From: Pseudofrankia inefficax
GTDB taxonomy: Bacteria; Actinomycetota; Actinomycetes; Frankiales; Frankiaceae
Assembly (NCBI RefSeq): GCF_000166135.1
Contig: NC_014666.1
Coordinates: 310,001-374,000 of the forward strand
Direction: 5' to 3'
DNA: 64,000 nucleotides
The notes beneath the pieces were generated by a model. It had not been told where the DNA came from. It worked only from the letters and a program-made list of their open reading frames with translations, and searched no databases. This document shows positions 2,338 to 6,854 of the stretch, one piece after another. Position 1 is the stretch's first letter; each line of letters opens with the position of its first letter. The translations under genes were made by a program, and so were the position numbers.

Positions 2338-3140
2338 TCAGCTTCTGCGGTAGCGGTGCCAGCGCTCGGCCGAGACCTCGACGCGCGTCGTCCATGAGTC
2401 GGGGTCGTCGCTGGCGATCTCGGCCCAGAGCCGGCGGTTGGCTTCAATGAAGGCTGCAACTGCTGGTGGGAACGCCGCGTTCCAAGACGGGAATTGGGCG
2501 GCCCAGCTTTCGGCGTCGGCGGGGGTGTGGCCGGCGACGATGAGCCAGAGTGCGCATAGGGCCGGGTCTATCCAGCCAGCGCCTCGGGTGGGCCAGGCCC
2601 AGTCGACGATGTGGGCGCGGTCGGTGATGAGGATGTTGTCGGGGTTGTAGTCGGTGTGGAGCAGGTGGTTGCCGGCGAGCTGAGCGAGGTCGGCCGGGTG
2701 GTCGATGTAGGCACGCCACCGGTGTTCCGCCCGCTTGATGGGCAGGTCGGGTGCCGGGACGGCCTGGAGCTGGTGGAGGCAGGCGGCGACCTTCGGGAGG
2801 TCGGCTGATCCCGGTGTGAGGTCGGCTGACCTGCCGTCGATGTACTCGAAACCCAGCAGGTGCCACCACCGGTCTGAATGGACCACAGGAGGCGGGGTGC
2901 GACCGTGCCGCCGACGTAGGGGTTGATCGCGGCCTCGGTCTGTTGGGTCCAGGCGCGGGGATGTCCCTCGCGGAGGCCCTTGACGAACACGCGGGTGTCC
3001 GCGGTTTGGAGGATGGCGGCGAGCTGGGAGTTCCAGCCTTCGCGGACCGGGGTGACGCCGACGATGGGTCCGCATTCGGCGTCGATGGCCTTGCGGAGCG
3101 CGTCGTCCAGACCATCCCAGGTGACACGGTCGATGACCAC
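2338..3140 (-). pseudogene. Aminoglycoside phosphotransferase-family kinase, frameshifted
   Basis: Two reading frames together give one APH/choline-kinase-like protein. The first frame starts at a GTG at 3140 and covers the N-lobe (starting MVIDRVTW). The second frame continues with the GFEYIDG hinge, the catalytic loop HTDYNPDNIL and the metal-binding IVDWAWP segment, ending at 2338. The switch falls at about 2865-2880 in a GGTGGTGG tract, where one extra G would restore the frame. It is either a decayed gene or a sequencing error in a G-rich run. It follows the radical-SAM gene and the small peptide gene on the same strand, so if intact it may modify that peptide or belong to its operon. 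Substrate unknown. Confidence 0.7.
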
Positions 3141-3216: not shown

Positions 3217-3348
3217 CTACCGGTAGGGGTTGTCGTCGCCGCAGCCGGTGAGGCTGGTCGGCTCGAAGGTGTCGAGGTCGTCGACCAGGGTGAGGCCTTC
3301 GATCTCGTCGGTGTCAGTGGGTGGCGGCGCGGTCTGGGTGGACGACAT
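3217..3348 (-). CDS. Candidate RiPP precursor peptide (43 aa)
   Basis: A 43-residue acidic peptide begins inside the last 35 nt of the radical-SAM gene, in another frame, and continues downstream of it. The leader-like part is rich in D/E/T with the sequence EGLTLVDDLDTFE; the C-terminal part SLTGCGDDNPYR holds the only cysteine. Short size, an acidic leader, a single Cys near the end and direct coupling to a SPASM-type maturase make it the likely substrate. A thioether or other radical-installed crosslink is possible. I do not recognise the peptide as a member of a named RiPP class. Translational coupling with the maturase is expected from the overlap. Confidence 0.65.
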   Translation of the reverse strand: MSSTQTAPPPTDTDEIEGLTLVDDLDTFEPTSLTGCGDDNPYR

Positions 3349-4477
3349 GGAGCTGTCTCCTTCCGTGGGGGGTTTCCTTGTGCTGGCAGTAGTTCCGCAG
3401 CGGCGCGTTGGCCTTGCGGAACAGGGTGACCAGCGGCATGCAGGTGCCGCAGGTGCCCTGCAGGGTGCAGCCAGTACAGCCACCCTGCCGTTGGAGGAGC
3501 CCGTCGGCGATGGTGCCGAGTCGGGCGAGCCCATCGAGCCCTTCGTCAAGGAGCGGGATGTTCGGTTCGCGCCCGACCTTGCAGATGCTGGCTTTGCCGA
3601 ATGGGTCGACGTGGAAGAACGTGTGTCCCGCGTTGCAGCCGGTGAACGGTGTGCGTGGACCGAGAATCTCGGGGGCCTGGCTGGCGAGCACCTCGGCGCC
3701 GCCGTAGATCGTCGGGGAGATGTTGCCGTACAGGCTGTGCGGGAGGCCGTAGCGGTCGGCGAGCGCACGCATCTGGTCGACTTCGTGTGCGTTGCTGCGG
3801 GTGACGCCGATGCTGAGATCCATGGGGATACCGGCCTCGTGCGCGGCTGCGAGACCTGCGGAGAACGCCTTGAACGCTCCCCGGCGGCGGGTGAGTCCGT
3901 CGTAGCTCGCCTCGGTCGCGCCGTAGATGCTCAGGGTGATCCGGTGCGGCGGGCGGCGGGTGAGCAGGTCGAGGATGCCCGGATTCGCGAGTCGTGAGCC
4001 GTTCGACAGGACGTCGATCATCATGCCGAGGTCGAATGCCAGGGCGTAGACGTCGGAGAAATGGCGGTCGATCATCGGTTCGCCGCCGGTGAGCTGAAGC
4101 CAGAGGACTCCGGCGTCCCGGATGGTGTGCAGTAGCCGGACGCGGTCGTCCCATTCGAGCCCGTCGAACTTCTTCAGTCCCAGGTAGCAGTGCTCACAGT
4201 CATAGTTACAACCGAGGTTGACCTCATGGGATGCCCGGCCGTAGTTCAGCGCCGTGGGTTGACGGACGAGGACCGATCCGGCGATGGCCCCGGCAAGGTC
4301 GATGCCCCACCGTTGCTTTGCGGCTGCCGTCAACCAGACGGGGACGTCACCATCCTCGGTGTCGAGCGTCTGAAGTGCCTGATAGCGGTCTGGACTGATC
4401 TTCACGCCCTGGTTGCTGCCCGGGGTTACCAACAGATGGTGATCGAGAAATGGGCTTGCGATCAGCCGGTATGGCAT
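3314..4477 (-). CDS. Radical SAM/SPASM peptide maturase
   Basis: The protein has 387 residues counted from the ATG at 4477, preceded by GGGAG at good spacing; an in-frame start 19 codons upstream lacks this. The 4Fe-4S motif CNYDCEHC is at C90, C94 and C97, and GGEP at 131-134 binds SAM. The C-terminal third has seven further cysteines (281, 299, 334, 337, 343, 346, 364) in a SPASM pattern for auxiliary clusters, typical of enzymes that modify ribosomal peptides. The N-terminal 80 residues could include a peptide-binding segment. The small Cys-containing peptide gene overlaps its end, and it is divergent from an XRE-TPR regulator across a region full of inverted repeats. The exact reaction cannot be told from sequence. 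Confidence 0.88.
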   Translation of the reverse strand: MPYRLIASPFLDHHLLVTPGSNQGVKISPDRYQALQTLDTEDGDVPVWLTAAAKQRWGIDLAGAIAGSVLVRQPTALNYGRASHEVNLGCNYDCEHCYLGLKKFDGLEWDDRVRLLHTIRDAGVLWLQLTGGEPMIDRHFSDVYALAFDLGMMIDVLSNGSRLANPGILDLLTRRPPHRITLSIYGATEASYDGLTRRRGAFKAFSAGLAAAHEAGIPMDLSIGVTRSNAHEVDQMRALADRYGLPHSLYGNISPTIYGGAEVLASQAPEILGPRTPFTGCNAGHTFFHVDPFGKASICKVGREPNIPLLDEGLDGLARLGTIADGLLQRQGGCTGCTLQGTCGTCMPLVTLFRKANAPLRNYCQHKETPHGRRQLHVVHPDRAATH

Positions 4478-4555
4478 CGGGTCTCCCTGGCGTGGGCTCG
4501 CACGTTCGGCGAGATGAACCGTAGAAAGGCGCACAGTCCCAAGCCAGGCACCAAG

Positions 4556-4605
4556 CGTGGTAGTTCTTCGCGCTCCGTGGTGTCAACTACCACGGTGCGT
4601 GGTAG
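4556..4605. promoter_or_regulatory. Operator cluster CGTGGTAG/CTACCACG between divergent genes
   Basis: Three half-sites lie between the maturase and the XRE-TPR gene: CGTGGTAG at 4556-4563, CTACCACG at 4587-4594 and CGTGGTAG at 4598-4605. The last two form a perfect 8-bp inverted repeat with a 3-bp spacer; the first two form a 10-bp inverted repeat (CGTGGTAGTT/AACTACCACG). The same half-sites recur just after the regulator gene. They are the likely binding sites of the adjacent regulator. Confidence 0.75.
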
Positions 4606-4671
4606 CGGTCGCAGGTCAGGAGCGGTATTGGTCGACTACGCTGGTAGGAGATCCTCGGGAGGAGGCTGCTG

Positions 4672-5931
4672 GTGGACGCTGGCGACCGCCCGATCAGCGG
4701 CAACTTGCGGGACCTGCGCCGGACTGCCGGTCTGTCTCAAGAGGAGTTGGCGGGACGCACTGGCCTGAGCGTGTCGACGGTCCGGAAGGTCGAACAGGGT
4801 GGATCGGCCCGGGTCGAGACGCTGCACGTGCTGGCGCGTGCGCTTGGTGTCGAGACGTCGGCCCTGTTCGGTAGCCAGGCGCCCAAGCCCGCGGACGCCG
4901 AAGAGGAAAACAAGCTCAACCTGGTGGCGTTCCGCCATGCGCTCACGCCCGCCGTCGGATTCGGCGGGTCGACGCGGCGCGTTGATGGGTTGGTGGCGGC
5001 GGGCATCGAGCGGGAGTCGCTCGGGCGTGATCTCCGCGCGGCGGTCACTCGTTACCACGCGGACGACTTCGAGGGCGTAGCTCGCGGGCTTCCCCGGATG
5101 GTGGCTGCCACGAACGAGCTGGTCAGGCAATCGGCCGGCGATGAGGTCGCGTCGCTGGCGGCTCAGCGACTGCGTTCGGATGTGCTGCAACTGGCAGGCT
5201 GGTTTCTGACCCAGGTACGCCAATACGATCTTGCATACGTGGCGCTGCGGGATGCGGTGGCTGACGGCGAATCGTCGGACGACCGGTTGTCCGTGGCGGC
5301 GAGCGTGATCTCTCAATGCTGGTTGTTCATCCGACAGGGCCGGTTCTCGGATGCGGAGCTTCTGGCCGGCGATGCTGCGACGCAGATCGAACCGCGCATG
5401 TCCGAGGCCTCGAAAGAGGAGCTGGCCGCCTGGGGCTGGCTGCTGTTGCGTGGGTCTGCTGCGGCCATCCGCAACAATCGTTCGGACGAATCGCGTGAGT
5501 TCCTGCGGCTGGCAGAGGTGGCGGCCGTCCGGCATGACGGTCAACCGCGTCGGATGGCGGCCGGCTATCACCAGTACTGGAGCACGTTCGACGTGTCCAC
5601 GGTGCGCATGAAGATCGCGGAAGCCCTCATGATCGATGGGGACGCTTCCGGCGTGCTTCGGGTCGCCGAAGGTGTCCAGGCTCCGAGGCGGGCGGGGCGG
5701 TCGGACAACTACAGCCGGCACCTGCTGGATGTTGCCGGTGCGCACGCTGCGCTGCGGAACTACCAGGACGCCATCGACATCCTGTCCAGCCTGCGGTCAA
5801 CGACGCCGGACTGGCTTCGCCACCAGCGGCGTGCCGGCGACCTGGTCGGCGGGCTCGTGACCTCCCGCAAGCGGCGCGTCGGCCAGGACCTCCGGGAGCT
5901 GGCGGGCTTCTTCGGTAGCACAGGGTCATAG
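4672..5931 (+). CDS. XRE-family regulator with TPR-like domain
   Basis: Residues about 8-65 form an XRE helix-turn-helix (LSQEELAGRTGLSVSTVRKVEQG). The remaining 350 residues are helical repeats of TPR type, ending LVGGLVTSRKRR. Proteins of this layout in actinobacteria usually control an adjacent gene cluster, and the repeat domain may bind a peptide or partner. The GTG start at 4672 has GGAGG six bases upstream. It is divergent from the radical-SAM peptide operon, with inverted CTACCACG sites both in the shared promoter region and just after its own stop codon, so autoregulation and control of both flanks are likely. Confidence 0.85.
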   Translation: MDAGDRPISGNLRDLRRTAGLSQEELAGRTGLSVSTVRKVEQGGSARVETLHVLARALGVETSALFGSQAPKPADAEEENKLNLVAFRHALTPAVGFGGSTRRVDGLVAAGIERESLGRDLRAAVTRYHADDFEGVARGLPRMVAATNELVRQSAGDEVASLAAQRLRSDVLQLAGWFLTQVRQYDLAYVALRDAVADGESSDDRLSVAASVISQCWLFIRQGRFSDAELLAGDAATQIEPRMSEASKEELAAWGWLLLRGSAAAIRNNRSDESREFLRLAEVAAVRHDGQPRRMAAGYHQYWSTFDVSTVRMKIAEALMIDGDASGVLRVAEGVQAPRRAGRSDNYSRHLLDVAGAHAALRNYQDAIDILSSLRSTTPDWLRHQRRAGDLVGGLVTSRKRRVGQDLRELAGFFGSTGS

Positions 5932-5950
5932 CGAGACCACTACTACGTTC

Positions 5951-5987
5951 CGTGGTAGCTCCAGAACGGCGAGCATGAACTACCACG
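5951..5987. promoter_or_regulatory. Second operator pair CGTGGTAG ... CTACCACG
   Basis: CGTGGTAG at 5951-5958 and CTACCACG at 5980-5987 face each other with 21 bp between, against 23 bp for the first pair upstream of the regulator gene. The pair lies upstream of the rightward gene that begins near 6077, so that gene probably belongs to the same regulon. A short hairpin (CACCGC-AACT-GCGGTG, 6031-6046) follows. Confidence 0.7.
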
Positions 5988-6076
5988 TTAGCCGGCTGGT
6001 TACCCACTCTCGGTACTCCTAGCTTCATCTCACCGCAACTGCGGTGAAGACGGAGGATGGGACGGGAGGGGCCGCG

Positions 6077-6854
6077 ATGGGTGCGCCGGTACACGTGGCG
6101 TCGCTGGCGGACGGGTCGGGTGCGCTGTTTGCGCCGGTGTTGCCGGTAGATCTGCCGCCAGACGAGGCGGGTCTATTGACACGCTCGGAGCGATCCGCGG
6201 CGGCTGGTGGCGCGTCGGGTTGGGAGTTCGCTCCGGCACGTCGGGCGGGCTTGATGCGGCTCGCGGTTGAGCGGGCGGGCGTGCCGGGGGTCTCGTCAGT
6301 GGTGGTGTGCCCTGCGGGGATGCCGGTCGAGCGGACGGCGCTGGCGCTGGCGGTCGGGGAAATTTTGCGGACGCGGCGGCCTGGTGGGGCTGCGGTCGTG
6401 ACGTGCGCGGCCGTCCCGGCGTGGCTGGGTGTGGACCGTTCGGCGGTCGTGCATCCCGTCCTTGTGCGGGCCGGCACGCAGGCGGTGACGAGCCGGCACG
6501 TGGAGTACCCGGTGGTCGTCGTACCTGGCGACGTCGGGCGGAAAGGTCGTGTGGGCGCAGTTCCCGGGGGTGGTCGTGACCTCCTTGCCCGCGACTGACG
6601 GGGACGGGCCGGCGCTCGACAATCGGGTGGCTCGGCGGGTGCCGCCGCCGCGATGGCCGGTGGCGTTCCGGACGGATCCGGAAACGCTGGGACGGGTGGC
6701 GGACAGGCTGCGGGCGCTCGACGACTGGCACCTGTCCGCAACGGCCGGGCTGCGCTCCGGGCTAGAGCCGGCGATGACCAGGATCCGTGCAACCCGTGGT
6801 GTGCTACCCGGCGTTCCACTCCAGGTCAGTCACTGTGATCGTCAGAGCGGGTGA
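6077..6854 (+). pseudogene. Hypothetical protein in two frames (apparent frameshift)
   Basis: The frame starting at the ATG at 6077 (GGGAGGGG just upstream; an in-frame GTG lies at 6044) runs to 6598. A second open stretch, in the next frame, covers 6549-6854. Reading GGGGGAAAG instead of GGGCGGAAAG near 6540 would join them into a protein running VVVVPGDVG then GKVVWAQFPGVVV, which looks more natural than either end alone. I therefore read one gene of about 258 codons with a 1-bp indel. No family is recognised. The operator pair just upstream ties it to the radical-SAM peptide system. Confidence 0.5.

Follow-up and report, generated by a model that had tools for sequence, protein, structure and literature searches.

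What is the role of a 43-residue peptide whose reading frame begins inside the last 35 nt of a radical S-adenosylmethionine (SAM) maturase gene? The question is raised by a 64,000-nucleotide stretch of Pseudofrankia inefficax DNA (contig NC_014666.1, positions 310,001 to 374,000; hereafter the window), whose minus strand carries, in this order, the maturase gene, the peptide gene, and an aminoglycoside phosphotransferase (APH)-like kinase gene in two frames. We compared this locus with related loci. It is best read as belonging to a new family within a known kind of system, the radical-SAM ribosomally synthesized and post-translationally modified peptides (RiPPs), and its partner kinase is unusual. 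The family is apparently large and undescribed; its members are found in actinobacteria and also on certain actinobacterial phages and plasmids.

A precursor peptide adjoins a SPASM-type maturase

The maturase gene (3314..4477, minus strand; ATG at 4477, stop at 3314-3316) codes for 387 amino acids and matches Pfam Radical_SAM with an E-value of 1.4e-14. The CX3CX2C motif that binds the radical-SAM cluster is present as CNYDCEHC (4187..4210, minus strand), and its cysteines C90, C94, and C97 are invariant in an alignment of 52 sequences. In the SPASM region of the same alignment (C281 to C364; 3386..3637, minus strand), C281, C299, C337, C343, C346, and C364 are invariant and C334 is found in at least 90% of the sequences. 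The CX2CX5CX2C form typical of SPASM domains can be read in the sequence. The closest structural matches are SkfB and SuiB.

The peptide gene (3217..3348, minus strand) starts with the ATG at 3348, ends with the stop at 3217-3219, and encodes MSSTQ...SLTGCGDDNPYR, with one Cys, in a frame that differs from that of the maturase. The coordinates, the Pfam match, and the cysteines thus agree with the initial annotation, which had described a SPASM-type maturase with a 43-residue, one-Cys peptide starting in another frame inside its last 35 nt.

We assembled 199 related loci, a set in which certain places are counted more than once, being present in two collections. The named loci are the best 80 of 145 maturase relatives from a scan of named genomes and therefore lean to close relatives. 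Removing 45 entries before the tree was built (35 duplicates, and 10 in which the maturase was short or broken or no precursor was called: L002, L074, L093, L107, L170, L207, L208, L209, L210, and L211) left 154 non-redundant loci.

The initial annotation proposed searching for co-occurring peptide-maturase pairs in other actinobacteria, and such pairs are the rule. An open reading frame (ORF) that matches a loose precursor pattern lies at the end of the maturase gene in 195/199 loci, so that an encoded precursor adjoins a peptide-modifying enzyme and the two are conserved together, as expected of a RiPP. Two more precursors were recognized by eye, in L002 (no stop before the contig end) and L074 (altered end); the remaining loci, L093 and L211, are one broken place. 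A strict motif, drawn up from the very 199 loci on which it was scored, occurs in 193 of them and in 0/2300 control windows from the same loci, where the loose pattern occurs 13 times. We considered that the peptide might be a chance ORF and that the enzyme acts on something else, for which its short length and overlap are the only arguments. Its recurrence at related loci excludes this for practical purposes, and we give the idea almost no weight.

Selection on the relatives points the same way. The ratio of non-synonymous to synonymous rates (dN/dS) has a median of 0.29 and is below 1 in 394/394 usable pairs, which are non-independent and in which the most upstream ATG was used, so that some include the maturase overlap. 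The last 12 codons differ by 36 synonymous and 18 non-synonymous changes across 33 non-overlapping pairs. Three observations weigh on the other side: the whole precursors in these 33 pairs differ by 171 synonymous and 203 non-synonymous changes, two of the pairs have no synonymous change, and the window precursor and its nearest relative, L002, give dN 0.27 and dS 0.31, so that selection is not visible on that pair. Taken together, the comparisons indicate that the 43-residue peptide is a real precursor.

The junction between the two genes varies. Among the 154 non-redundant relatives, 65 have an overlap of 1-4 nt, five an overlap of 5-40 nt, 44 a gap of 1-30 nt, and two a longer gap. The other 38 show an apparent overlap of more than 40 nt when the most upstream ATG is taken as the start, and in many of them this ATG probably lies too far upstream. 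The 35-nt overlap is a local detail of the window and not a general feature.

The leader is short and acidic, with the consensus ...V-x-D-L-D.... The window peptide has no Pfam or NCBIfam match at E-values up to 1. Five of seven relative peptides have none at E-values up to 10, and the other two show only sub-cut-off matches (an antiporter subunit and a poxvirus polymerase at E 0.004-0.005, and two DUFs) that look like chance.

Two classes of core peptide share an invariant proline

We aligned the C-terminal cores of the 154 non-redundant relatives and the window (155 cores). Proline is invariant in all 155, an acidic residue stands two or three positions before it in every core, and the residue that follows it is Tyr in 110, His in 33, Phe in 9, and Asn in 3. 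The cores fall into two classes, C-S-C-x-A-G-D-D-[NQ]-P-[YHFN] (CxC class) and G-C-x-[DN]-D-N-P-Y-x (single-Cys class).

In the CxC class (108 cores), the cysteines lie nine and seven residues before the proline (P-9 and P-7), and the C-terminus directly follows the post-Pro residue in 105/108. The second Cys and an acidic residue have CX3[DE] spacing in 106/108. The single-Cys class (47 cores) has Cys at P-5 and Asp at P-2 in 47/47, and 40/47 carry one or two further C-terminal residues, mostly R, N, Q, or K. Its spacing is CX1D/CX2D, unlike the CX3[DE] of the CxC class. The window core, GCGDDNPYR (3220..3246, minus strand), belongs to the single-Cys class, with Cys at P-5, Asp at P-2, Tyr after the proline, and one extra residue.

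Kinase presence tracks a tyrosine near the peptide end

The gene after the precursor encodes an APH-like kinase and/or a two-part protein with a C-terminal GNAT domain. A frameshifted kinase-family gene had been predicted in the window, and we recovered it as two pieces in two frames: an N-terminal piece (2868..3140, minus strand), with similar sequences in 126/199 loci, and a catalytic piece containing HTDYNPDN and IVDWAWPTRG (2338..2868, minus strand), with similar sequences in 130/199. The frameshift lies near 2868, and the reading frame is not intact. The 14 best counterparts listed for each piece sit 1.3-1.6 kb past the maturase start. The kinase is a regular partner in the relatives. The window is not alone in having broken partner genes: both the GNAT and the kinase gene of L216 (G606:C1:16330-22724) are split over two or more frames.

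The Pfam APH match of the window kinase is weak (E 0.0045, under the gathering score). Support for the APH fold comes from a model of the kinase from relative L006, and the catalytic HxD...N and D residues are invariant in 27 kinase sequences. No sequence match to any solved chain was found at E 0.001, and two family members examined had no NCBIfam match. The fold is common to the corramycin and amicoumacin kinases, the APH family, and LicA; the cassette kinase differs from these in that its substrate is probably a peptide tyrosine.

We compared core sequences with partner genes across the 154 non-redundant loci. The kinase calls for L096, L102, L105, L107 (from L170), L130, L131, L134, and L152 were set by hand from longer stretches. 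The kinase occurs alone in 99 loci, the GNAT protein alone in 46, both in 7, and neither in 2. GNAT is restricted to CxC cores (53/53) and to cores with Asn before the proline (53/53); its presence shows no clear pattern with the residue preceding the first Cys. Tyr follows the proline in 106/106 kinase-bearing loci. Of the 48 loci without the kinase, 45 carry His, Phe, or Asn at this position. In all 199 loci, the kinase goes with Tyr in 131/131; where it is absent, 60 lack Tyr, four have it, and four have no precursor call. Kinase presence thus closely tracks a Tyr near the peptide end, and this covariation suggests that the kinase probably phosphorylates that residue.

The family also offers a case of apparent loss. 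L105 has the core ...GCGNDNPF and neither kinase nor GNAT, and it retains a gene of about 150 codons that has no Pfam match, occurs in 15/199 loci (all 15 single-Cys; for example, L235 4281-4724 and L212 1639-2115), and usually follows the kinase gene. In L158 and L160, the nearest relatives of L105, the core is ...GCGNDNPY and this gene lies after the kinase. The gene is thus kept in L105/L212, where the kinase is absent.

Several points count against a strict kinase-tyrosine link. Tyr occurs without the kinase in the Glycomyces loci L042 and L043, in L134, in L209 (whose maturase is in pieces), and in the viral contigs L244 and L245, of which only about 4 kb downstream is seen. The tree offers six independent pairs with a kinase difference; Tyr accompanies the kinase in four to five of them and runs the other way in none, but the sign test gives p 0.0625-0.125, above 0.05. 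Support for the branch uniting L105 with L158 and L160 is only 54 (95 one step further out). An independent-pair test of GNAT with the CxC class was uninformative.

The same covariation bears on a second reading, in which the locus makes an antibiotic or toxin-like peptide and the producer protects itself by inactivating it internally with the kinase and GNAT protein, in the way of antibiotic phosphotransferases and acetyltransferases. The kinase-tyrosine tie fits this reading as well as tailoring. Against it, choline and homoserine kinases also have this fold, and no exporter was recognized among the recurrent neighbors. Self-protection is a serious alternative role for the two enzymes; we regard it as possible and the less probable account.

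Regulators and operator-like sites

A divergent XRE-type regulator gene (4672..5931, plus strand; 419 amino acids) lies upstream of the maturase. Its product matches HTH_3 (E 1e-11). The initial annotation had described an XRE-TPR gene with repeated operators. The helix-turn-helix assignment and the repeated operator-like sites hold, whereas the TPR matches are not significant in Pfam (best E 0.063), so that "TPR" denotes a likeness of the C-terminal region only. The sequence CTACCACG occurs seven times in the window (1.15 expected), and five of these occurrences flank the XRE gene. A palindromic operator-like site, CTACCACGGTGCGTGGTAG, lies between the regulator and maturase genes (4587..4605, 0 mismatches) and a second directly past the regulator gene (5940..5958, 1 mismatch); half sites CTACCACG stand near the palindromic sites at 4556..4563 (minus strand) and 5980..5987 (plus strand). 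With up to one mismatch allowed, the palindrome CTACCACG-N3-CGTGGTAG occurs at these two places and nowhere else in the 8,815,781-bp genome. We discarded a third place found at two mismatches as noise, since a reversed control pattern had seven there, and a pattern with a spacer of four gave only noise.

This arrangement raises the possibility of a signaling product that the neighboring XRE-TPR-like regulator would sense, in the manner of RRNPP-type regulators and their short peptides. One point against this idea is that actinobacteria commonly carry XRE genes. A divergent XRE-type gene lies within 2.1 kb upstream in 40 of the 72 named loci with at least 2.5 kb of upstream sequence, and in none of the 72 do the 3.5 kb downstream contain such a gene in the same direction; the downstream comparison concerns the other strand and is not a matched control, and L037, left out of the 72 for want of upstream sequence, does have a downstream XRE-type gene. 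The two palindromes that flank the window's regulator and are unique in the genome also favor a signal, as does the precedent of streptide, whose expression depends on an Rgg regulator (PMC8326336). Against it, the regulators fall into distant groups, homologs of the window's regulator are found in only 15/199 loci, and in the three regulators scanned Pfam shows weak TPR repeats or none. We consider a signaling role rather unlikely.

Comparison with known radical-SAM peptide systems

We compared the family with characterized radical-SAM peptides. The ranthipeptides (PapA/PapB, freyrasin) likewise combine one radical-SAM enzyme with a precursor bearing Cys and Asp. PapB forms Cys-to-Asp/Glu links in CX3D/E motifs and tolerates spacings of 0-6 (PMC9413430). 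The CX3[DE] spacing recurs in nearly all CxC cores, whereas the window's class has CX1D/CX2D instead. The new family differs from ranthipeptides in having a short single core at the extreme C-terminus with CxC or a lone Cys, an invariant Pro, and kinase and GNAT partners. Because the Cys and the acidic residue are constant and PapB provides a precedent, the maturase probably makes a Cys-to-acid thioether.

Other comparisons gave more distant likenesses. No maturase match reaches a curated NCBIfam cut-off. The sactipeptide models are far from satisfied by the window protein (StsB, 50.4 bits against 625; SkfB, 39.2 against 300), and relative L052 scores 31.2 bits against the AlbA cut-off of 850. 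SkfB, from the sporulation killing factor system, shares 19% identity with the maturase over the aligned part and acts on a different precursor. In the streptide system (SuiA/SuiB), which is controlled by Rgg and is not known to include a kinase or a GNAT, the linked residues are Lys and Trp, both of which the window core lacks. PADLOC named the maturase and kinase as a prokaryotic viperin (pVip) system; we rejected this, the NCBIfam viperin score being 38.4 bits against 180 and the PADLOC matches covering residues 89-232, the radical-SAM core.

The profile matches of the maturase include the mycofactocin maturase and PqqE, all under curated cut-offs. Mycofactocin (MftA/MftC), an actinobacterial system, likewise pairs a radical-SAM/SPASM enzyme with a short precursor that carries an aromatic residue close to its C-terminus. 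Here, too, the core is short and highly conserved and mostly has an aromatic residue at or near its end, and it could be the source of a small redox cofactor like pyrroloquinoline quinone (PQQ) or mycofactocin. The mycofactocin maturase model TIGR03962 scores only 57.9 bits against a cut-off of 265, the post-Pro residue is variable in the new family, and the distribution described below is sporadic, with cassettes on phage and plasmids. No mft partner gene was recognized among the recurrent neighbors. We find a cofactor very unlikely.

The initial annotation held that the peptide fits no known class. Our searches agree: no Pfam or NCBIfam family describes the window peptide, and no paper describing the family was found in a literature search that included literal core strings and covered few subscription papers or preprints. 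The core strings returned only unrelated cancer papers. PMC9062424 reports 22 previously unreported radical-SAM pathways, mostly in figures and supplements, and overlap with the new family is possible.

Distribution and mobility

The family is distributed sporadically. A maturase profile search (E up to 1e-50) found relatives in 6/396 genomes across the phylum, 16/393 of the class, 73/392 of Streptomyces, and 37/341 of another actinobacterial family. A search with the single window sequence found a relative in 6/35 genomes of its own family. In several genomes the cassette is present in two distinct versions (L027/L033, L091/L094, and L100/L106), sometimes with different cores.

Mobile elements carry the cassette as well. 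Six plasmid-collection records contain a maturase relative, one of which (11.85 Mb) is probably a chromosome. The four we examined are all from Streptomyces, three linear and one circular, and are annotated as "radical SAM protein, hypothetical protein" followed by "aminoglycoside phosphotransferase" (two) or "GNAT" (two). The name of one record, phiDSM40276, suggests a phage. Streptomyces phage Success (L239, NC_073472.1; 57-kb genome) has a complete maturase-precursor-kinase cassette at 3998-6112. Its genes 3, 2, and 1, which lie at the end of the phage genome, are annotated as "oxidoreductase," a hypothetical protein (a 38-residue peptide ending GCGDDNPYN), and "kinase." A PHROGs search gave no match for either the peptide or the kinase of this phage. 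In all five annotated records examined, the precursor is labeled only a hypothetical protein.

IMG/VR contigs contain 52 maturase relatives, 13 of them close (51-62% identity) and the others distant. Of 14 phage or viral-contig copies, some on contigs that are near-copies of one another, ten have the kinase and four GNAT only. Nine of the ten kinase-bearing copies yielded a core, with Tyr in 9/9; the GNAT-only copies have Phe (one), His (one), and Tyr (two, L244 and L245).

A proposed pathway

We propose, with roughly even confidence, that these loci encode a new radical-SAM RiPP family with a thioether-forming maturase and tailoring by a kinase and/or GNAT protein. The leader would dock on the N-terminal part of the maturase (residues 4-57; 4307..4468, minus strand), where the AlphaFold model has strands at 5-10, 13-17, and 24-27 and helices at 29-36 and 47-57; VIA alignments to SkfB and SuiB begin at residues 3-4. 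This secondary structure suggests a peptide-binding domain like the RiPP recognition element. The maturase would then join the Cys sulfur to a side-chain carbon of the nearby acidic residue, giving a small thioether ring with CX3[DE] spacing in the CxC class and CX2D or CX1D in the single-Cys class. The kinase, where present, would phosphorylate the Tyr after the proline, as the covariation suggests, and for CxC cores the product may be acetylated by the GNAT protein. Leader removal would fall to a general cell protease, and the adjacent XRE-type regulator may control the operon in about half of cases.

The thioether step of this model calls for caution. Its basis is motif spacing and fold only; the spacing differs between the two classes, and L039 and L073 break CX3[DE]. 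SkfB makes a C-alpha thioether. SuiB forms a C-C bond in streptide (PMC8326336), so the fold shared with these enzymes does not decide the chemistry.

The initial annotation saw a complete peptide pathway in the window. The maturase, the precursor, and the partnership with a kinase bear this out, but "complete" goes too far here: the kinase gene is broken, and neither a dedicated protease nor an exporter was recognized among the recurrent neighbors. With a broken kinase, the peptide made by this genome would carry no phosphate, except if the frameshift is an artifact of sequencing.

A more far-reaching version would make the family a phosphopeptide signaling or warfare system carried by actinobacterial hosts and phages alike. 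In it, a dedicated APH-fold kinase of the small-molecule type would phosphorylate the terminal Tyr of a radical-SAM-made thioether peptide, a GNAT would take the kinase's place in lineages with His, Phe, or Asn instead of Tyr, and a divergent XRE-TPR-like regulator would sense the product. In the phage setting, it could be a modified peptide for arbitrium-like or superinfection control. We regard this version as speculative and quite unlikely.

Neighboring genes

We surveyed 43 ORF clusters that recur in at least 6/83 loci, many of which are other-frame shadows. The recurrent neighbors recognized were the APH-like kinase, the GNAT protein, and upstream XRE-type genes; NUDIX, HATPase, and others were fewer. 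Eleven cluster representatives scanned in Pfam gave kinase, GNAT, HTH, NUDIX, HATPase, DUF5753, DUF6879, and AMP-binding matches, and two had no match. No exporter or peptidase was among these 11, the other clusters being judged by eye.

An S66 peptidase gene follows the GNAT gene of one plasmid copy (L238 7801-8844). We rejected it as an immunity gene, as homologs occur in 0/199 loci. In the window, the ORFs past the second operator-like site (6044-6854) look broken between frames (6044-6598 and 6549-6854). Those at 6077-6854 were dismissed as part of the system, having no homolog in the 199 loci at E 1e-5. The protein encoded at 832-2220 begins with a Mrr-type restriction endonuclease domain (Pfam Mrr_cat, E 4.2e-7); no significant match covers its long C-terminal part.

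Significance

About one in five Streptomyces species sampled, and about one in nine members of another actinobacterial family, have a close maturase relative. The family provides a small enzyme pair that can be tested, and its radical-SAM peptide cassette is present on a sequenced phage. The comparison of L105 with L158 and L160 offers a natural tyrosine-to-phenylalanine experiment accompanied by kinase loss. If the kinase does phosphorylate the peptide, this would, to our knowledge, be a new tailoring step for radical-SAM peptides.
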